Positions 1,246 through 51,084 of a stretch of DNA of 64,000 nt are shown one piece after another (the first letter of the stretch is position 1; every line of letters starts with the position of its first letter). The notes under the pieces were generated by a model. It worked only from the letters and a program-made list of their open reading frames with translations. It had not been told where the DNA came from and searched no databases. The position numbers and the translations under genes were made by a program. The stretch comes from Malania oleifera (lineage: Eukaryota; Streptophyta; Magnoliopsida; Santalales; Ximeniaceae): positions 5,808,001 through 5,872,000 of the forward strand of contig NC_080422.1 in assembly GCF_029873635.1 (NCBI RefSeq), written 5' to 3'.

Positions 1246-1842
1246 TGTTATATTTGTGTGTGACTCTGAGACTCTTATACTTAGTAGGATTCACAAACAA
1301 AGGAAGAAAGGTATGAGTTTTTGAAGTATTCCTAAGTGGCAACAAAAGACTCGTTGACGAACGTCTTGTGCTCGTCGACGAGGAGATCCAGAGAGTAAGA
1401 AAAATTCAGAGATCCTGAGATACCGAGAGTAGGAAAATGGGTTCGTCGACAAATGTCATGTTCTCATCAACGAGTGTCCTTCTTGATCTTGTCGATGAAT
1501 CCCCTGTTCTTGTCAACGAGAAGTTCTAGGCTGTGAACAGTTTTTGAATTTTGAATTTGAACGTTGTGGTGGTTGGGTAATCGGAGGGAAACCTCCAAGA
1601 GATCGTTATATATGTCATTCTAGACATGTATTGAGAAGAAGATTGATCATTTGAGAAGTGTATTGTGTACTTTGTGATTTCCTTAGTGAAATTCTTGTGT
1701 CATTGCTTTAGTGGATGTAGACTTTGCCAAACCACGTAAATCTTGTTGTTGTTCTTGTTGTTTATCATTTACTAGTTGTGTTTCATTTACTTGCTATATT
1801 TATTCTGTCATGCATCTTAATCATTCGATCCATATCACAATA
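1246..1842 (+). repeat. 5' LTR of the Copia fragment
   Basis: It starts TGTTATATTTG and ends just before the primer binding site. It aligns along its length with the 3' LTR at 50536-51084. It contains six copies of the 12-bp GTCGAC-centred palindrome (1350-1520), upstream of an AT-rich promoter-like stretch near 1608. Confidence 0.8.
1350..1520. promoter_or_regulatory. 12-bp palindrome array in Copia LTR
   Basis: Six near-copies of CTCGTCGACGAG start at 1350, 1371, 1442, 1463, 1488 and 1509, that is 21, 71, 21, 25 and 21 bp apart. The array sits in the U3-like part of the LTR, where LTR enhancers lie. A regulatory role is inferred from position and regular spacing only. Confidence 0.6.
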
Positions 1843-7610: not shown

Positions 7611-7856
7611 TCCACCTTTTTTTTTTTGGATCGCTTGGCTTCTGAGCAAGAATCAGAAGCCCTTTTCTTTTATCCCTCTCTCCTGATCTGCGTTCTCTGT
7701 TTTTTGGACAAGTCTAGTTTTCAATTTAGTTTTTCAGGCTTTCTCCCCTCATTTGCAGTGGAAAAGGGATCAATTTTTTAGTACCCTGTTTCCTGCACGT
7801 TATTTTCTGTGCACTCTGCAAACCCCTAATTCTCAACAGAGAAATTTTCAAAAATT

Positions 7857-8786
7857 ATGGAAAGAATGCAAGAAAACAGCCTTCAATTCCCACTCGCCCA
7901 TGGCGAAAACATCAGGTCTTCCTTATCTCAACTCATATTAAGTGGTGGCACCAACACCTTGGACTCAATTTTCTCCCATTACCCTCCATCAACCTCCATC
8001 GCCGCCACTGTTGTGGAACCACTTGGCACTTCTGTCTACCTGAAACAGAGAGATATGCTACAAAAGTTCTGCCAAGGAAACAGAGAAAATGGCTATGGCA
8101 CAATAGCAAGCAGTTCTCTAACCAACCCACTTCAAAATTCTGCATACAGAAGCTCATATATTAACCCATGCAAAAAGAAGTTATACAGAGGAGTGAGGCA
8201 GAGGCATTGGGGGAAGTGGGTGGCCGAGATAAGACTCCCCCAGAACAGAATGAGGGTCTGGTTGGGCACTTATGATTCTGCAGAAGCTGCAGCCTACGCT
8301 TATGATCGCGCGGCGTACAAGCTCCGGGGAGAGTATGCTCGCTTGAATTTCCCAAACCTGAGGGATGCAAGCAAGCTTGGATTTGGAGATTCTGCAAGAT
8401 TGAATGCTTTGAAGAGCTCTGTGGACGCCAAGATTCAAGCAATTTGCCAAAAGGTGAAGAGGGAGAAGGCTAATAGGAGCAGAGAGAAGAGCGGAAGCAA
8501 GGGAGATGGTGATGGTGGAGGAGGTGAGACGGCAGTGGGGGGGAACTCATCTTTGTCATCTTCACCGTTGCTGTCGCCGGTGGGTTTTGGCAATGGATGG
8601 GGCGGCGAATTGGTTTCACCAGCTGTTTCTGAAGATGGATTTGGGAAGGGTGATAATTCTCCACCATCCTCTGTTTCTACAGATTGCCCCGTTCTTTGGA
8701 CAGAGGAAATGGGTTTTGAAGATTGTTCACTGGCAAGGATGCCTTCATTCGATCCAGAGCTGATTTGGGAAGTTCTTGCCAACTAG
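7857..8786 (+). CDS. ERF061: AP2/ERF transcription factor, DREB A-6 / ERF group I (ERF061-like)
   Basis: An intronless 309-residue protein with one AP2 DNA-binding domain at residues about 109-166: YRGVRQ at 110-115, WVAEIR at 121-126, WLG at 135-137 and an AYAYDRAA helix. The Val of WVAEIR is the DREB-type residue; the [15 protein letters not shown] stretch and the LNFPNL end match group I factors, ERF061 best from memory. Flanks are low in complexity: a Ser/Thr-rich N-terminus, a basic Lys/Arg stretch after the AP2 domain (about 198-213, possible nuclear localisation), a Gly/Ser-rich linker and an acidic C-terminus ending [11 protein letters not shown] that may activate transcription. The family acts in the nucleus on GCC-box or DRE-type promoter elements, often in stress or development. 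The first ATG was taken as start. Single-exon structure is normal for this family. The exact orthologue is unconfirmed. Confidence 0.93.
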
Positions 8787-32177: not shown

Positions 32178-34255
32178 ATCTCCTCCTTTTTTATGATGAC
32201 AAACACATCAGAGTAAAATGGGTACAGCCTGAAAAGACTCCCCCCAGCAATATGCATAGAAAATATAAACAGCAAAGTTCAAGCATATTCACGAAATAAG
32301 ACATTACAAATGATCATGCATGTAATTTTAGCATTCAAGCACAAACTCAGAAATTGGTCCCTATATTATTTGCCCTCAAGAAATTTCTCCATTTTGGTCA
32401 TAAACATTTTACTCATAAAAATTCTCCCCCTTTTGGCATCAGCAAAAAGGGTTAAGTTAAGTAAAAAACTTTTAAATATTTAAAAACACACTTAGCAAGA
32501 GAACTCCCCTTCTTGGAAAAAAAATTCAATTTGTTTAGAAAATACTCTCCTTTTATGGTTTTGGTATTTAATTTTCATACAACACAATATAACTGGTTAT
32601 AAAAAAATGTCATGATAAACATGGTCAAACCAGAAGTATACACAAACCAATTCATTTTAAACACAACATAAGACTTGCAAAAGATTGAAATTTAAAAACA
32701 TGCGGCATATGATTGCAAGTGATGGTTTAAGCATAAAAGTGGTCCAACTAGTTCATATGCATTTCATGAACAATCAATGAACCAGTTATGTAATATAACA
32801 TCCTTAAAAGATTTTATGACATAAAATTTTAATTGAGAGAAAACGTAAGTCACGAAGGCATTAAAACCACACAAGCAAAAAATAAGATGTATTCTATGAA
32901 GGTTCATTTCTTGCGTTTGAAATATGTATATAAATAAATATATGTATAAAATATATATCCCCTTATGATCTTTGATGAAAACTGGGGGCAATGCTTGCTG
33001 AAAAATAAACTTTAATAGAAAGTTCAAGCAAGCATAATTTTCCTGATTAATCATTTGAGCATGATTCATAATATGACTAGAAAAATGCAACCATATAGAT
33101 CTAGAGATGTTAAATAAATTTAAAAACAGAGATCATATGTAAAAACAAAGATTTGTGGCCAAGCAACATTTTAATTCAAAAGATTTTCAATGTAAACATC
33201 ACATTTAAGCACATGCCACAATAAATTTAAAACAAATTAAAGCCCTATTGGTGAGCACAACGAAATAGAAAATCATTTTAAGATGCTACCCCTATCAATT
33301 TGACTACGTGCTTAGATACTATTAGCTACTTATACTGATATTAATTGTGAGAACTCATTGAGTGTTTAACACAGTATATGTAACGTCCCAGACCCGCCAC
33401 GTGAGGCACGGAGTGTTATGAGACCAATTATACGTCTCTGATATCATTCACACAATAGAATTAATTAAATAACTTCAAACAAATTACTAGAGTACTATAT
33501 TTACATATGCAAACCCATAAAGTACAATCTCATTCTTCATATTACATAACCAAGACAAAATATATTAAACATAAAACTAAACACATATCTGTTTTGGTAT
33601 CCACTCACAAAAACTAACCCCACCCTAGAGCTATCTAAGCTCGATCACCTGGAAGACCTGAAAAGATTAAATATTCGCCGGGGTGAGACACCTCTCAGTA
33701 AGAAAGAAATAAGTTACAATAATGCGTGGCTGAAGTGTTTAATATATAATTACAAGATATACATACAATTGCATTTCACTATCAATAGCAGCCAAGAAAA
33801 CGCATTCATAATCACACCATTGTCAACTTCTTTGTCACCCAATCACACACACACATACATAATTATTTTTACTGATAATTCCCGAGAATAGGGAAGTCTA
33901 CCCACCCATACAAGTAGATTCCCTCTACTTTAATACTAATACCAGGGCACTCACATTTCTCAGTAAGCTTGCGGGTTATGTATCAAGGCAAAGTCTTCGA
34001 GAATAGGGAAGGTCACTCGCCCATACAGGTGGCTTCCCCCTACCCTCGTATCCACAAATTATTACTAGAGCACTCTCTATCCTCAGCAAGCCCTCAAGTG
34101 GAGAATTTAACTTCACCATAAATACTCATGTAATTTAAAGTTACACATATCCAATGTCGTCATTTCATAGAGTTCCACACTTATACGCATATCACAACCA
34201 ATCCACATAGGATAATTGGTATAGTTTTCATTCACACCCACACAGGGTTCCTATA

Positions 34256-35201
34256 TAGGGGTGAGCAAACGATCAGTTCGGGGAAATTCGGTTAATTAAT
34301 TGATTTAACCGAATATTGCAGTTAATCAATTCCATTAACTGAACCGACCGAATAAGAGATGTTAACCGAACCTCGCCCGATCGAATTACCTATTCAGGTA
34401 ATTCGGTTAACCGAATTTAACCAAAATTATTAAAAATAACACGAGCATGACAAACTTTCTTAACCTCACAATCACAACATAAACCCCTGAAAAATGACTA
34501 GAAACCAAATTCTCAATCAATATGCAAAGCTTAAGAACAATTCCTCAAGGGAAAAATAACTCATAGAGGCTCTCGATTTGAATCTTCGGGTTTCTGTCGA
34601 GTACTTCTCTGCAAACAAAAATAAATAAATAAATGCAGAATAAAACACAAAAAATAAAAATATTCATATAAAATTAATGAAGCAAGGATTACTCCTAAGT
34701 GGAGGTTGAAAATATCGATAATTGCGGGTTTAGATTTTAGAAGGGTGGAACTGGACCAACTGGTAAATCCTGGAAGCTGATCTCTGGTTTGGATCCATTT
34801 CATGTCAGTTGGGAAACGTTAATGGAGTCCCAAACCTGAAAATTTTGAGTAGTCGGTTGTCTCCACTCTCCACTATCATCTGAGAAAGGAAATAGAGAGG
34901 GGAAAGGCAAAGACTTTTCCGCAGACCAGCAAACCCTACTACCCTGGCCCAGTAGCCCTCCTCGCCGTCCTTGGCTCCTCCACTCCACCTTTTTTCCCCA
35001 ATCCCTAACAAATTGTTTGAAATGTAATTACTTATTAAATCGGTTAAAAAAAATTTATATTTTCTGTTCACCAAACCGAAACCTGATTAACTGAATTTTG
35101 GTGAAGCCCAACCGAACCGATTTTTTTACCCGAACCAAACCGACTAATTTCGGTCGGTTAAATCGGTTAATTCAGGTTTCCCCAAATTATACTCGCCCCT
35201 A
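34256..35201. mobile_element. hAT-type MITE nested in the solo LTR
   Basis: Terminal inverted repeats TAGGGGTGAGCAAA and TAGGGGCGAGTATA bound 946 bases. The flanking 8-bp duplications TTCCTATA (34248-34255) and TTCCTATC (35202-35209) match at 7 of 8. Subterminal AACCGAATTCGGTT-type motifs are abundant at both ends, while the middle (about 34440-35030) is unrelated DNA without transposase. Confidence 0.85.
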
Positions 35202-36254
35202 TTCCTATCCACATAGAATACAATGTCCACACAGGACTCTAATCCACATAAAATACGTGTCCACACATGGCTGGTCTACACAGGACTATCAACTACACAG
35301 GTTACATGGTCCACACAAGACTAATCATCACACAGATTACAACACATACCACCCTATTTATGATAAATAGGTAAAACAACTCTTCATACCATTGCCAATG
35401 TTTTACCCGCCAATATAAATGCCCATATAATGACCTCCTTATACCATTGCCAATGTTATATGACGGTTATATCAGGTACAATATAACGACCTCCTCATAC
35501 CTTTGCCAACGCTATATCGCAATTTACACGAACTACGACACAGATCAATAACAAAACCAACAATTCAAGCACATCCACGCATCTACCATAGTATACACAA
35601 TTAGACAGTATCCACAACCAACCAGAATTCGCAATCCAAAAAGTAGCCACCAGTATCAGTCAAAATCAAGCAACACCCACGACCATTTAATTACCAAAGT
35701 TGTTTTCATGCCACACGATTTTTTCCAATATAATATATATTAAAAAAATAGTATTTTCAATGCCTGCACCGTTCAAAATAATTTGCCTAAATATTTAGAA
35801 TTTTATACCCAAAAATTAACCAGTTTAAAATTAATAAAACCTGATATAACGTACTTCCCCTTCCCCGCTCATCGGGATTCAGCTTAAGATTGAACAAAAA
35901 CGAGACCCTGTAATCCAAAATTCCCAACTCACTCAAATCTCAGAAAAATACTCATTTAATACGTCTTAGGTTCCATATATTTCAAAATAATAATAAAACC
36001 ACAAAATATTTCACCTACCCTGGTTTTGGGATGTTTCCCAAACTTCTCAAATCGAAATTATGCTCCGCCTATATTACAAAGAATCTTCTTAGGAGTCTTG
36101 TGGTAGCTTCCAATGGTTGAATTAGGCTAAATCTGAGCCAGGTTAGAAGAGAGAAGGCAGAGGGGCCATTTTTAGAGAGAGAGAAACAAAATAAAAATGA
36201 ATTCCTTTCTGAAATTCTGATTTTTGCCTATTTATAGGCAACTTGCCACGTGGC

Positions 36255-36444
36255 CTCGTCGACGAGACATCAGGACTCTTCGACGAGCCCAAGAACACCG
36301 TTCATGGACAAAAGCGGGAGCTCATCAATGAAATTCAGATATGTGAGAACCTCTCTCAGTAAATCCTCGTCAAGGAGACATACATACTTGACGACGAGGC
36401 TCAGAAGATAGCTGGTCGACAAGAAAATCAAGTTCGTCGACGAG
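36255..36444. promoter_or_regulatory. 12-bp palindrome array in the solo LTR
   Basis: Eight copies of CTCGTCGACGAG-like palindromes start at 36255, 36276, 36301, 36321, 36366, 36387, 36412 and 36433 (steps 21, 25, 20, 45, 21, 25, 21). Confidence 0.6.
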
Positions 36445-38360
36445 TGCCTGCTTGTTTCCTTTTTTAAAATTTCTTCTCCTTTTTCTTCTATTTCCCCATT
36501 TTTCCTTTTATTATATTCCTTATTATTTTAAATAGTTAAAATTTTTCGAATTGTTACAGTATAAGTACTGGAACAAATCAGACACTAAAAGTGAAAACAA
36601 TAATAATGTGGGTCCACGGGTCAGGTGACTTTAATCCTTTTTCAAAGACGGGCTTAAACTCCCCCGTATAATCTCAAGCACACATGAGTTCATTCACGGT
36701 CAAGGATGAATTTCAATTAAGCACATTCAACACATGTTCATCCTTCAAAACAAAACTCAGCACGCAAGAGAATATATACGTTAAGCTCTTATTTATTTTT
36801 CCTAAAAGTGGGGCTAAAGCTCCCATGTATATCTGCGTGCACACATACTTGCATTATAGTTCAAGGATGATAGTCATTTAAGAACGTTCCTTGTATATTC
36901 ATCATTTCTAACGATTTCAATATGCAACAATTATTAGACATTTAGCACATAGCATGACATATTGCATTTCAAGTTGAAAAACGATAGCCAATTAGGGCTA
37001 TACTCAAGGTAATGCAATGGGGGTTCAAAATGGATGACATAACTCAAGAATACAATGAGTGCGTGCGAAATGAAAAACTCGCCTTAAGTCATACAATTCT
37101 CCTAATTTATGGACCATCATCAGAATATGTGACGTTTAATTTCAAGGATGATGTTTTACCATTTAGGTCCCGAGTGAGAGTACATAACCCAAAGATTTAG
37201 ACCAAATGGTGTCCACGCACAAGTTTCTCCTAGGTCAATAAAATGTGAACATGTTTTTAATTTTTATAGCATTTTGGATTCTGCATGTACTAAATAATTT
37301 AATTATCCAGCAACCTAGGAAATAGACATGAAGACTAAGCATGTTTTTAAGTTTAGCACATACTATTTGAAATTTAACATGTACCAGCTAACTATTAGAT
37401 TATTTTGCATGCATTATGAGAATAATCATAAAATTTACCTAGCATGCATTTTATCATCATTTATACTAGTATATCGCTTCACTTTTAGGAAAAGTTCTAC
37501 CAAAATTTCGGTAGCACGTCGTCTGTAAATTGAACATTTTTTCCTTTTTTCATGTACCAGAAACTTGATAGATTCATGCAAACAATTCAAAAATAATCTG
37601 CATCATGCAGAAATCATTTAGATTGAGCATGTGAGAACCTATATCCACTACCAGCATGTAATTCACATCATTGCATCCGTCATGCAGAAGACATTCAATA
37701 CAAGCATGCCTTCAGTAGTTCAAACAACAGTTCATAAAAATAAACTATCCATAATATATTCACTTTTACAAGTAATGGACAGTAGCATTCAATTCAAAGA
37801 AAATTATTCATTCGTTAGAGAATATAATTATTTAGCACAAATGGATATTTGCGTTCAGTACCAACAAATCCTCTAATAAAAGTATCATAATAAAACATTT
37901 CCAAAATTAAGCATATTGCAATAAAGAGCTTATTGGATGAGATTTTAAATTTTCTGCTCTCCCTCAGTTATGTAGCCAAAGAATTTTAAATTCACTCAAT
38001 AGTATTTGGCATAACCAATATTTTCTAATAAGAGGATGAGCTTAGAATTTCTTAGATTAAATTTATCATTTTAAAAGGAACTATCATTTAAGCTCAATGA
38101 TGAGTTTAGGATTTTACATTACATACCATAAGATAGATTTCCTAAAACTCATTACTATGTGATGGACAAATTATGCTATATTTAAGATTCTTATATTTAA
38201 GCATATATAGCATTAAGAGGTATTTCCACGAATAGAGCTTCTTTGTCCATTTGAAGGGGATTATATTTTAAACATGCTTATGAGATTTAAATTTAAAAAA
38301 TGACAGTTTTGTATAAGCATGATATAACCAATATTATCATATATTATCCAATCATAATGA

Positions 38361-41496: not shown

Positions 41497-41518
41497 TGTC
41501 ACGACCTGCTTATTTTCA

Positions 41519-41563
<45 letters not shown>

Positions 41564-42683
41564 ATGTCATCATAAAATCAACACCACACATCTCACATGT
41601 CAGCTCAGTAGATCACAATCCACCTGGACCCGTGGGTTCCAGGGATACATCATAACATACAGCAGAAGCCTACGCAGCAGGAAACATACAATCACATGCA
41701 TCTAATCATTTCATATTTTACACTATACTAGAGTTACTACATCCGTTGCACTTCCATACATACATCCCAAAAATGAAATCTAGGGACAATCCCCACAAAA
41801 AAACCTAACCATCCCTACAAGACTTACCCTTCATAGAGGGTAGATATACAACACTATATCAATGGGGCTTTTCCCGCTCGCCTATCCGGGGCTCCTGAAA
41901 AGTTTATAAGATTTAGGGGTGAGACACCTCTCAGTAAGGGAAATAAAATAATACTAGTGTGTGGCGACATGAGTATTCTCTGCTCTACATATACCATACA
42001 TAACATATTCAATACTGTATATCAAATATGGGAAAACATATGTATATCAAAACATGATAGAACATACTGCATTTTCATAAACATTTCTCATCTCATATCA
42101 TAATAATAATATCATAAAACAATTTTGGTAGGTTAGTTGGCTGTTGTCATGTATTACCCCCACATGACTGGGTTGTGTGGCCAGAAGGCGGGACCTGACA
42201 ATGGTTATCCGACCACTGCCAAGTCAATAGTCCAGTAGTGGTGACTTCGGATTGTTGATCCGGCGAAGATCTGGCCTGAAATCGATGAAAGAAAAAGAGG
42301 GGACCGAAGAGGAGAGAGAGAGAAGAAGAATAGCTTAATTAGGAAGTTAAATCTAAATTTTTCATATTTATAGGACAGTGGAATTCGTTGACGAGCCCGA
42401 CCTTCGTTGACGAATTCTTTACTAATTTCGTCAACAAAATTCAATCGTCTCATCCCCCCTCTCGGTATTTTCTCGTCGATGAGTCCCCTGTATTTGTCGA
42501 CGAATTATCTGAAGCCTTCATTTACGAATCCCCTGTATTCGTCGACGAAGCCCTGCTGATCCCCCTTCCGTTATTCTTTCCAAAGTTCAATGTCGTCGAC
42601 GAAACTCGACTGCTTCCTTCTATTTCCGGTTCCATTTCCCCCTCTTTATTATTTAAATTTTATTTTAAATTCGGGTCGTTACA
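41497..42683 (-). mobile_element. solo LTR (TGTAACGACC family), minus strand, fossil
   Basis: It starts TGTCACGACC and ends GGTCGTTACA on the plus strand with a perfect 5-bp TSD AAACC (41492-41496 and 42684-42688). The uninterrupted LTR at 30348-32177 shows the empty site. Minus-strand start TGTAACGACCCGA matches the start of the copy at 44371. Contains a TA microsatellite (41521-41561), a palindrome array (42384-42603) and, on the minus strand, TATAAAT near 42370. Confidence 0.85.
42384..42603. promoter_or_regulatory. 12-bp palindrome array upstream of TATA in the solo LTR
   Basis: Copies of TTCGTCGACGAA start at 42384, 42403, 42427, 42472, 42493, 42517, 42538 and 42592 (steps 19, 24, 45, 21, 24, 21, 54). 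The copy nearest the minus-strand TATA box is about 11-13 bases away. Confidence 0.6.
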
Positions 42684-44253: not shown

Positions 44254-44430
44254 AAATTTATTGTGTACTTTGATATTTCCTTAGTGAAATTCTTGTGTCA
44301 TTACTTTCGTGGATGTAGGCTTTGCCGAACCACGTAAATATTTTTGTTGTTGTTATTGTTTTTTTGGTTGTGTAACGACCCGAGTAATAATGGTATTTTA
44401 ATAATAAATAGGAAGGAGAAATTATCAGGT

Positions 44431-44618
44431 TTCGTTGACGAACATAGGGGATTCGTCGACGAGGGTATAAAGGGACCTCGTCGACGAAGACAAGATTCGT
44501 CGATGAGAAGATACCGAGAGGGGTTTTGGGTAGTCTGAATTTCATTGACGAGGAGGTAAGGTTCATCGACGAAATTACTTAAGGACTCGTCGACGAGGTG
44601 ATGTGTCTCATCGATGAA
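44431..44618. promoter_or_regulatory. 12-bp palindrome array directly upstream of a TATA box
   Basis: Eight copies of TTCGTCGACGAA/CTCGTCGACGAG start at 44431, 44452, 44477, 44496, 44541, 44562, 44586 and 44607 (steps 21, 25, 19, 45, 21, 24, 21). The last ends 8 bases before TATAAATAG. Confidence 0.65.
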
Positions 44619-44673
44619 TCCGACCCTATAAATAGTGAAAATTCGGATTTTTATCACATTTCAGCACAATTAC

Positions 44674-44676
<3 letters not shown>

Positions 44677-44728
<52 letters not shown>
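44677..44728. repeat. CT microsatellite
   Basis: About 26 CT units, about 45 bases downstream of the LTR TATA box, in the presumed transcribed leader of the LTR. Confidence 0.9.
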
Positions 44729-44731
<3 letters not shown>

Positions 44732-45247
44732 ACGGCCTCTCCTCCTTCTCTCTTTGATTTCGGCACCATTAGTCGCTGAATTGGCGATCTGAGGCCATCA
44801 TGACATTCCTGGCGGAGTTTTCTTGAAATCTGCCGGAGCGGATCGTTGGTGAAACAAAGTTTGAATTCATTCCAAATTCAAGGTAAGACCTTTTAGTCAA
44901 TTTTTGGCATTCTGACAGTTGTAAGAAATGATGTAGGCAAAGAAATATTGATATTCTATTCTGGAAAATGTTATTTTCAGGGTGTTGAGTGGAGAACCCT
45001 GTGGGTGTAGGACCCGTCTCAGTAGGGGATTTTTTGCAGGAAATGTGTAAGAGAAATATGCTATGCTAGGTAGTTTTAAAATGATTTCCAGTATGAAATG
45101 TATATTTTTACCAGTTTATTATTCACAACAGGACATTATACTGTTTATTAATTATGAATATTATGTATTAAATTATTATGTGGCATGAGAATATAAATAT
45201 AGTACAAAAGCAAGTTTTACAGTATTTTCAGGGTATGTTTTTATAGA

Positions 45248-45385
45248 TTATACAGTTTAAAGTACCATGATTATACAGTTTACAGTACCATGATTACACA
45301 GTTTACAGTATCATGATTATACAGTTTATAGTACCATGATTATACAATTTACAATATCATGATTATATAGTTTCCAGTACCATAA
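45248..45385. repeat. 23-bp minisatellite
   Basis: Six copies of a unit containing TATACAGTTTACAGTACCATG; AGTACCA-type starts lie at 45261, 45284, 45307, 45330, 45353 and 45376, exactly 23 bases apart. Inside the solo-LTR-like insertion. Confidence 0.85.
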
Positions 45386-48300
45386 CCTACAGATTAGAGT
45401 TTAGTTCAGAAATACAGTTGACACAGTTACAGTTTATTTCATTGTCATGATTAATACAGCTATTTCAGAATCATGGTAAAACAACTACTTGTATATAGAA
45501 ATATATTATATAATATCAGACCCTGTTGGACCATACAATTATAAAGTACGGTACCGTAGCTACAGATATTTCAGTTATGAGTGCAACCACCTATTTAGAT
45601 AATACATGGTAGTAGATCGATCATGCCCAAACGTGGACAGGCTCCCCATCAGATATGGGTTGAGGAGTAGCCAATCTGACTGAGGGAGAATAGTGGTTTA
45701 CCTTGGTCGGCCAGCCAAGGTAGATCCCGGCTACGGGCCGCACAACCCTGTCATAAGGGGTTAAATCATGACATACAGTTATCCACAGGGAAGTTTTCAG
45801 TTGCTATTACGTATATATAGATTTACAGAGACAGAGAATATACTTATGTACATTAGAATTATTTTGAGTAGAAACCTGAAATACAGATATGTTAAGCAAC
45901 ATGGAAATGGTAGTGGTTTCTATTACTTGTACTATATTTACAGATCCAGTTATATATGATTATATAGAAACAGATTTTCATAGTATTGTAACTCATCTGC
46001 CACACACTAGTAATAGTATATTTCGTCTTACTAAGCGTTGGCTCATCCCAATTACTTTAACATTTTTCAAGTGATCCATGTAGGTGAGCAGATCAGGCTC
46101 GTAGATAGAAGGGTCTCAGTATTGTCCTGATATTAGAATGAGTACTTTTAGGAGTATTTTTTTATAGCCCTAGTCAGTTGAGGATATTTCTGGGGAACAG
46201 TTATATATGTATATTTTGGGAAACAATTTAGCACTCTAGTATTGTATATAATTACATATGGTTATGTTTATTTGATTTCTGCTTCTCGCTGCTTAGGTCG
46301 ATGATTGGGTTTAATCCAATATGGTATCAGAGCATGTTAAATGTCATAAAAAAAAAACCCAGTTAAATAGTAGGTCGTTACAGGTTGTGTTTCATTTACT
46401 TGTTTTATATATATATATATTTATTCCACTGTGCTTTGTATTTGTCCCATCCATATCACAACAAATTGGTATCAGAGTGATTGTTGTCGTGACATCAGCA
46501 TCATCTTCTGTACGATTTGACATTGTAAAATTTGTTGGAAATGGGAACTTTGGTTTATGGCAAAGGAGAGTGAAAAACATTCTTGTACAACAAGGAATGG
46601 GAAAGGCATTGCTTGGTGTTTAACCGAATGGAATGGATAGGGCAACATAGGGAGAATTGTAAGCAAAGACCGCTTCTACAATACGCTTATGTTTGAACAA
46701 CGAAGTACTCTATCGGGTGATGGAGGGGGATTCTCAAGCGGCTATATGGTGAAAGTTAGAGAGCTGGTACATGTCTAAATCTCTCAATAATAAAATTTTT
46801 CTTAAGCAACATTTGTATTGGCTTAAGATGGTTGAAGGATCAAACTTAGATCAACGCATTAATACTTTCAATCAAATTATTAGTGATTTGATGAGAGTTG
46901 ATGTTAAGTTTGACGAGGATGACAAAACTTTGATGTTGTTAAACTCTTTGCCCTCGACTCATACCTATAAAAATCTTGTGACCACTTTTACGTGGGGAAG
47001 ATAAACTTTTGATCTTGAAGAGGTAACATATGTTTTGCTAAATTTTCATCAAATATTGAAAATATGTGATGAGGGAGAAGGACTTGTGGTAAAGGGTAAT
47101 AATGACCAAGGCAAAGGAAAATCCAAACATGGATCAAGTCTGAAATCCCAAAATCAATCCAAAAATAAGAAAGAAATTCAATGTTATAAATGCGGTAAAA
47201 GGGGCATGTGAAACTGAAGTGTCTGGATTGGAAGAAGGGAAATTCTGAGAAACATGAGGGTACTTCAAAATATGTGAATGTTATTCAAGAAGGAGGTTCA
47301 GCATATAGTGATGGTGATGTTCTATCAGTTTCAGAGGGTTCGGATAATCTAACAGACTCTTGGATACTTGACTCGGCATGTTCTTATCACATGATTCCGA
47401 ACAAGGAGTGGTTCAACACTTACGGGTTAGTGAATTCTGGATCAATTCTTGTGGATAATGATGCTTCTTGCAAAATCATTAGCATAGGAAATGTAAAGAT
47501 AAAAATGTTTGATGATGCTGTAAGAACGTTATGTGATGTAAGACATATACTAGGGTTGAGGAAGAGTTTGATATCACTTGGAACATTGGATTGTAATGAC
47601 TTTAATTAAAAGTTCAAATGTGGAGTTATGACAGTATGGAGAGGTAATCTAATTATAATGAAAGGATACAAACTGGATGAGAATATCTACACATTGCAGG
47701 GAACTACCGTTGTAGGTGGAGTTGCAGCCATAGATGCTGAATCAGATGAGACCGTCTTGTGGCATATGCGCCTTGGGCATATGGGGGAACACAACATGAA
47801 AGAACTATACAAAAGGAAGTTGTTGAAAGGCTTGAAATCATGTCAACTGGAATTTTGCAGGATTTGTGTTCTTGGAAAACAAAATAAGGCAAAGTTCAGA
47901 TCAGCTATACACAAGACAAAAGGTATTCTTGATTATGTGCATTCAGATGTTTGGGGTCCGGTTAGAGTTGCATCAAAGGGTAAACATGTGTATTATGTGA
48001 TTTTTATAGATGATTACTCACGGAAAGTCTGGGTTTACTTCATGCGTCACAAATTAGATACGTTTGCCAAGTTTAAGATTTAGAAGGCTGAAGTGGAAAA
48101 CCTGATAGGGAGGAGAATGAAATACTTAAGGTCAGATAATGGGACCGAGTATGCTGATTATAGATTTATGGAGTTTTGTGTGGAGCAAGGCATTAAGAGA
48201 TACTTTATAGTTTGCCGGACACCTCAACAAAATTTTATGGAAGAACGGATGAATCATATTCTTTCTGAAAGGGCTCGGTGTCTCAGATTAAAAATAGAGC

Positions 48301-50535: not shown

Positions 50536-51084
50536 TGTTGTTTGAGGTGTGACTCTTATACTTTGGTTTTATTAAACAAAGAAGTAAGAAGAAAAACATA
50601 AAGGGGCAACACAACAGGGACTCGTCGATGAGTACCCTATGCTCGTCGACGAGTAAATCCCGAGAGCAAGAAAATCGTAGAGCTCTGGACTCGTCGGCGA
50701 ATGCCCTGTTCTCGTCGACGAGTGGTCTTCTATGGATCATCAACGAATCCCTTGTACTCATTGACGAATGCGCTTAGGCTGTGAGTAGTTTTTCTAAATT
50801 TTAAATTTGAACGTTGGGTGGTTGGGTATTCGGGGGGAAACCTCTGAGGGACTATTATATATGTCATTATGGGCATATATTGATAGAGAGAGTAATCATT
50901 TGACAAGTGTATTGTGTACTTTGAGATTTCTTTAGTGAAATTTTTGTGTCATTACTTAAGTGGATGTAGGCTTTGCCGAACCACGTAAATCTTGTTGTTG
51001 TTCTTATTTTTCTGGTTGTGTTTCATTTACTTGTTGTATATATATTTCGCTGTGCTTCGTATTTATCCCATCCATATCACAACA
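50536..51084 (+). repeat. 3' LTR of the Copia element
   Basis: Begins TGTTGTTTGAGG and ends CATATCACAACA. It contains six palindromes of the array family at 50621-50768. Confidence 0.85.
50621..50768. promoter_or_regulatory. 12-bp palindrome array in Copia 3' LTR
   Basis: CTCGTCGACGAG-type copies start at 50621, 50642, 50690, 50711, 50736 and 50757 (steps 21, 48, 21, 25, 21), the same 21-25-21 pattern as in the LTR at 1246. Confidence 0.65.

Follow-up and report, generated by a model that had tools for sequence, protein, structure and literature searches.

Why LTRs of unrelated retrotransposon families should carry the same array of evenly stepped palindromes, and what such an array might do, is the question raised by a locus in Malania oleifera. 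The locus lies in a 64,000-nucleotide stretch of DNA (NC_080422.1, positions 5,808,001 to 5,872,000; hereafter the window). A sequence-only reading had described five LTRs in the window with six to eight palindromes each, centred on GTCGAC and set at fixed start-to-start steps. All five arrays and their step series were recovered with sites of up to three mismatches (Table 1).

Table 1 LTRs, palindrome arrays and associated elements in the window.
Feature	Position	Strand	Remarks
Ty3/gypsy-type LTR, TGTAACGACCC...GGTCGTTACA	44371..46382	+	apparently solo, within a copia LTR; GGTTG as 5-bp repeat at either end
Palindrome array, 8 sites	44431..44618	+	steps 21,25,19,45,21,24,21
Centre motif GATACCGAGAG in 45-bp gap	44510..44520	+	read from the letters; offset from site checked genome-wide
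TATA-proximal 9-bp spacer GTGATGTGT	44598..44606	+	read from the letters
TATA box TATAAAT	44627..44633	+	8 bp past array end
Gypsy-type LTR	41497..42683	-	apparently solo; 5-bp repeat AAACC in flanks
Palindrome array, 8 sites incl. one distal extra	42384..42603	-	steps 19,24,45,21,24,21,54
TATA box	42366..42372	-	11 bp off array
Gypsy-type LTR	33379..36558	-	apparently solo; 5-bp repeat GTATA in flanks
Palindrome array, 8 sites	36255..36444	-	steps 21,25,20,45,21,25,21
GCCACGTGGC filler, array to TATA box	36245..36254	-	occupies the extra 10 bp
TATA box	36230-36236	-	18 bp off array 36255..36444
Copia LTR	1246..1842	+	borders from initial reading; 81% match over 318 bp downstream of array to LTR at 50536
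Palindrome array, 6 sites	1350..1520	+	steps 21,71,21,25,21; TATATAT at 1607, 86 bp downstream
Centre motif GATACCGAGAG in copia array	1419..1429	+	element-relative direction as at 44510
Copia 3' LTR, 549 bp	50536..51084	+	full-length matches 1-549; pol pieces at 47.2-49.3 kb precede
Palindrome array, 6 sites	50621..50768	+	steps 21,48,21,25,21; TATATAT at 50856, 87 bp downstream

The three LTRs of the TGTAACG type in the window have 5-bp direct repeats at their ends, as read from the flanks, and look like solo LTRs. Nesting of the LTR at 44371-46382 in a copia LTR explains its copia-like flanks but not the sharing of the array; otherwise, the flanks of copia LTRs match no other LTR flanks. 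Nested insertion or misplaced LTR borders were rejected as the cause of the sharing, since the array at 44431..44618 lies within the borders of its own LTR. The DNA between the elements includes, at 7830-8783 of the window, a 318-codon open frame whose product has an AP2 domain; it may be a host gene for a transcription factor.

Searches of the whole genome (1,494,336,490 bases) returned 37,861 copies of the palindrome TTCGTCGACGAA, as against 67 of the reversed word and 7 of a control palindrome, TTCGACGTCGAA, which has the same letters and likewise three CpGs. The window and 20 random 10-kb stretches (264 kb together) hold 64 sites with zero or one mismatch, and one such site for the reversed word. 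Arrays, defined here as at least two sites with zero or one mismatch, are present in 11 of the 20 random stretches (C1-C9), 11 arrays in all. Extrapolation to the whole genome gives some 80,000 arrays as an order of magnitude, a coarse estimate from 11 events. The 25 matches in viral_contigs, with a GC content of 0.60-0.73 and 2-25 loose sites each, were provisionally taken as chance, and viral relatives were set aside.

Each site contains three CpGs. In 167 sites from 24 arrays (excluding the sites of L001 before position 1450, as in the TATA and step counts), the 1,002 CpG letters carry 163 C>T or G>A and 18 other changes, and the 668 non-CpG letters 10 changes. As the sites were found by their own sequence (up to three mismatches), figures for their conservation and change are inflated. 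Decay at CpGs is what one would expect in every plant transposon that is methylated, and is no evidence of function. The outer letters, Y and R, are self-complementary in only 182 of 307 sites; the effective core is therefore TCGTCGACGA and the site (Y)TCGTCGACGA(R).

The arrays occur in LTRs of Ty3/gypsy elements, of a short Ty1/copia family and of a Sirevirus-like copia family, and the coding domains assigned by Pfam bear out their presence in unrelated superfamilies. The copia element at 46.4-51.1 kb of the window encodes Pol_BBD, gag_pre-integrs, rve and RVT_2; the short copia family has a 549-bp LTR, and on C11 and C6 its LTR pairs are separated by about 4.65-4.9 kb. TGTAACG-type LTRs are found as same-strand pairs 6.6-9.1 kb apart, between which lie RVT_1, RT_RNaseH, Integrase_H2C2 and SH3_Tf2-1 in one case (L094, with RT-RNaseH before integrase) and RVT_1, RT_RNaseH_2 and SH3_Tf2-1 in another (L095). 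The Ty3/gypsy assignment is based on these two members, their LTRs being paired by strand and distance only. Among the gypsy clades of M. oleifera, Del has the highest prevalence according to the available part of one report (PMC6377399).

Eight further arrays, termed the H group (L007, L008, L014, L076, L083, L085, L086 and L092), lie in LTRs whose starts differ from the TGTAACG type. One of them, L014, carries RVP_2, so the H group is probably gypsy too. The gypsy-type arrays proper (G class, 32 arrays) are a leftover class, L001 and L090 among them, two loci that gave no flank matches. The family of L078 encodes zf-CCHC, Pol_BBD, rve, SH3_retrovirus and RVT_2 in copia order (L096, + strand), its LTR-LTR match extends over at least about 1.5 kb, LTR matches lie 8.8 kb apart on C12, and four AAGGGGGAG-like PPT runs precede the 3' LTR (L097). 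By published criteria, applied to one C12 copy, it is Sirevirus-like; Sireviruses have a published mean length of 10.55 kb, classic copia elements one of 5.6 kb. The L078 array was analysed as displayed, opposite its coding strand.

Distances between neighbouring sites form sharp peaks at 19-21 and 24-25 bp genome-wide, so the fixed spacing proposed from the window alone is upheld. Exact sites are paired 13,307 times at steps of 19-21, 262 times at 22-23 and 6,282 times at 24-25. Starts with an exact pair at steps of 15-45 number 28,165, so that 8,314 remain whose nearest step is a different one; among the first 100 places listed, these other steps were 15, 26 and 43 (one each) and 44-45 (26 cases).

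The arrays compared in detail number 44, with 326 sites: the five of the window, the 11 of the random stretches (C2-C9 being sampled in the first 90 Mb only), the eight loci L001-L008 (first matches on C1), and 20 of our own choice among 58 clusters at the start of C1. Among their steps of up to 40 bp, 218 of 224 fall at 19-21 (145) or 24-25 bp (73), the remainder being two at 22, two below 19 and two above 25. Of the 44, 21 show the 4+4 plan in full (21-25-21, centre gap, 21-25-21), several of the others being cut at the edge of the stretch or having decayed slots; L080, L082 and perhaps others of the 20 end at a stretch edge, where missing sites do not signify decay. At L081:362-597, a proximal-type block (spacer GTGACGTGG) is seemingly repeated distally, which suggests block-wise recombination.

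The copia gaps of 48 and 71 bp are counterparts of the centre gap and hold (AT)CCGAGAG-like letters. Genome-wide, ATACCGAGAG follows CGTCGACGAR within 30 bp in 3,494 and 2,965 matches on the two strands, against 0 for the control. The motif stands exactly 3 bp past a full site at 57 of 100 places listed and 22-28 bp past one at most of the others, as though a site nearer by had been lost to decay. When one change is allowed, CCGAGAG is found in 19 of 41 gypsy-type gaps (40-75 bp) and 5 of 9 H gaps, some gaps being decayed sites; the copia gaps have it three times forward and once reversed, and the L078 gaps in neither of two cases.

A match to TATA[AT]A[AGT] lies within 20 bp of the array end in 33 of the 44 arrays, mostly at 8 or 18-20 bp, two clusters about one helical turn apart; the distance is that from the nearer of the two array sides, which gives chance two tries. 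No match was found within 130 bp in seven of the 44, and one further (L077) was missed through its wrongly assigned direction, which also entered the flank comparison; in three copia arrays the box is 86-90 bp away. A TATA box some 10 bases past the array had been noted for two of the TGTAACG-type LTRs in the window and is present there, at 8 bp (44431) and 11 bp (42384), while that of the third (36255) is at 18 bp. The last, TATA-proximal spacer contains ACGT in 16 of the 32 gypsy-type arrays, and an ACGT word stands directly past the array in seven; none of the eight H-group and three copia arrays has it in either place. In the Sirevirus-like LTR, with the coding strand as reference, TTATATAA lies at the array's upstream end (L098:2296-2303).

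The proposal that the sites face the same side of the DNA applies to pairs 19-21 bp apart, near two turns, but does not extend to whole arrays. With 10.5 bp to the turn, the mean pair step misses two full turns by 19 degrees, and the 24-25-bp step is 2.3-2.4 turns; in an idealised array, successive pairs are rotated by roughly 85-105 degrees. Phase coherence at 10.5 bp was 0.25, no better than the 0.31 of random positions (32 arrays with at least seven sites), and with the 24-25-bp steps off phase, helical phasing of whole arrays was rejected.

Identity of the spacers is 82% within the copia family (18 blocks) and 33-47% between groups and families, with 33% expected by chance. In the latter range, it is highest within the gypsy-type group and lowest for reversed gypsy against copia. 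The four invariant T/A letters of the sites have 95-99% identity between groups and families. These comparisons used the 18 of 20 copia copies with a complete proximal block, and a shuffle test added W1350 and W50621 (20 blocks). In that test, the spacers of 19 of 56 other blocks were copia-like beyond their own shuffles at p<=0.01 and 25 of 56 at p<=0.05, and 31 of 56 were not alike at p 0.05. A 9-base spacer, TCCCCTGTA or its complement TACAGGGGA, is present in copia, gypsy and Sirevirus-like (L078) arrays.

The spacers had also been described as alike around CCCCTGT and as reading in the opposite sense in copia LTRs, and each description fits a part of them. A CCCTGT-like word (five of six letters matching) is absent in either sense from 71 of 104 gypsy-type short spacers and from all 28 H-group short spacers. 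It is opposite to the copia sense in 29 of the 104 and in the copia sense in four; moreover, the gypsy blocks L006, L084 and L087 match copia spacers in the same sense, and opposite sense as a general rule was rejected. Since the CCCTGT spacers and the centre motif differ in relative direction between copia and most gypsy LTRs, transfer of a single block does not explain both. Every site, being palindromic, is a direct and an inverted repeat at once, so recombination between sites could flip modules, and this would account for CCCTGT and ATACCGAGAG being found in mixed directions.

The reading favoured here, with moderate confidence, is that the array would be a U3 enhancer bound by a dimeric, probably host, factor, with its parts exchanged between superfamilies. 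A single sequence-specific DNA-binding protein, most likely a transcription factor of the host, would occupy each palindrome as a homodimer, and two dimers 19-21 bp apart, placed on almost the same face, would bind co-operatively. A full array would comprise four such pairs, in two four-site blocks around a ATACCGAGAG-like centre element, with an ACGT-core word in the last spacer of half of the gypsy-type arrays sampled, and would bring RNA polymerase II to the TATA box close by. Recombination among the Ty3/gypsy, short Ty1/copia and Sirevirus-like families is the putative route by which arrays or array parts were exchanged; selection would then have kept sites and steps while the spacers drifted. 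A literature search for the palindrome sequence gave nothing relevant to a binding factor among the matches listed.

A bolder form, in which a modular cassette (4+4 palindromes, 21-25-21, ATACCGAGAG centre) was traded among the three kinds of element and tens of thousands of LTRs answer to a single host regulator, is tentative and somewhat more doubtful than probable. LTR enhancers are usually thought to be family-specific. If the proposal is correct, regulatory DNA crosses superfamily borders, and a single host protein may govern how active much of the genome's retrotransposon load is. One 12-bp word and one spacing rule would then offer a handle for finding the binding protein and for asking whether LTRs link host genes to it.

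VANDAL elements are DNA transposons. The study of VANC21 target arrays is said to be that of Hosaka et al. 2017. Arrays of a short motif in VANDAL21 are read by one protein, VANC21, and motif density matters there (available part of PMC5735166). By analogy, the arrays could be targets of an element-encoded or domesticated anti-silencing protein whose binding would strip methylation from the LTR. This is unlikely, although the arrays are likewise dense, of one motif and near a promoter, and their sites, with three CpGs each, decay as if methylated (163 of 1,002 letters C>T or G>A). Such decay is, as noted, the expected fate of plant transposons. In the same part of that source, the VANC21 motif (YAGTATTAY) is repeated in the same orientation, the binder is encoded by the transposable element and targets differ between related VANC proteins, whereas here unrelated kinds of element have one palindrome in common.

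Very little probability is given to hairpins in RNA or DNA, in which palindromes 21 bp apart would form a 12-bp stem and a 9-base loop and act through small RNAs or RNA dimerisation. Two sites with a 9-base spacer are in themselves an inverted repeat, and the outer letters of pairs 19-22 bp apart are complementary in 95 of 139 (odds ratio 5.0, p 1.5e-5); the families are not independent, however, so this association may be inherited. The inner letters of such pairs are unassociated (76/144, odds ratio 1.27, p 0.61), and lend RNA hairpins no support. Hairpins need complementary arms, but neither one word across all families nor a fixed 24-25-bp step.

The kept spacing would be functionless if a 46-bp unit of two palindromes had been amplified by slippage in one ancestral LTR and inherited as a neutral minisatellite. 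The Sirevirus-like linker array reads as degenerate 46-bp units and the copia short spacers are alike among themselves, as this would predict, but sites and steps persist where the spacers have diverged nearly to the chance level, the centre gap (mostly 44-51 bp) interrupts the 46-bp rhythm, and the array is common to superfamilies without flank similarity; neutral amplification is accordingly improbable. Equally improbable is independent evolution of site and steps in unrelated LTRs for one host factor, with no exchange of DNA. Palindromic motifs of related shape do occur in many Sireviruses of low sequence homology (available sections of PMC2829016), partner proteins could bind at CCCTGT and ATACCGAGAG, and 31 of 56 blocks lack likeness to copia spacers at p 0.05. 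Against this, the 19 blocks share copia spacer letters beyond their shuffles and the 9-base spacer recurs in all three kinds of array. Sharing of a cassette is favoured because part of the spacers, and not the sites alone, are alike, and the sequence comparisons on balance favour exchange over pure convergence. The U3 enhancer remains the likeliest reading.

LTR motifs of this kind are known; the array generalises them, being shared and strict in its spacing. Tnt1 and Tto1 have repeated short enhancer boxes in U3, which resemble the arrays in being repeated U3 boxes and differ in being confined to one family each. The palindromes of maize Sireviruses are reportedly the subject of a 2016 paper. 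Although the sequence-only reading knew of no description, palindromic LTR repeats upstream of TATA are described in Sireviruses as RM boxes, where they are called Sirevirus-specific and absent from classic copia elements (Bousios et al. 2010, PMC2829016, available sections, which also name Tnt1 box I). What holds of the claim concerns the combination: no description of the same palindrome and spacing in both gypsy and copia elements was found in the searched open-licence literature, among the matches listed.

As with the RM boxes, several copies of the palindrome lie in the LTR close to TATA (no more than 20 bp away in 33 of 44 arrays here), and the RM motif of Vitis, CGGTCGACCG, has the same GTCGAC centre. 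According to the available sections of PMC2829016, the RM motif varies between elements and its core is CGG-CCG except in Tnd-1; the core here, CGTCGACG, also differs from that signature. Unlike RM boxes, the arrays are not confined to Sireviruses, being present in gypsy elements and in copia elements with 549-bp LTRs as well, and they repeat one CGTCGACG word at fixed steps in gypsy, short copia and Sirevirus-like elements, whereas those sections give no spacing rule.

The CpG islands in the LTRs of Del elements (Ty3/gypsy) are similar, in that a stretch rich in CpG lies towards the 5' end of the LTR (Cruz et al. 2014, PMC4029996, available part). They differ in that a no-island pattern predominates in the cluster with all the eudicot elements (same part of PMC4029996), and neither palindromes nor tandem repeats are mentioned by those words in the main text of PMC4029996.

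Nine Sireviruses have extra RM copies in the linker before ENV (available sections of PMC2829016). The linker of L097 holds four sites with 1-3 mismatches, and the three frames scanned there matched no domain family. At L097:486-610 it contains degenerate 46-bp units, each with two palindromes and the spacer CACAGGGGA, a possible source form of the LTR arrays. A second class of palindrome (TTGGTCGACCAG, TCGGTCGACCAG) adjoins the array at L001:1254-1450 and is close in sequence to the Sirevirus motif of Vitis.
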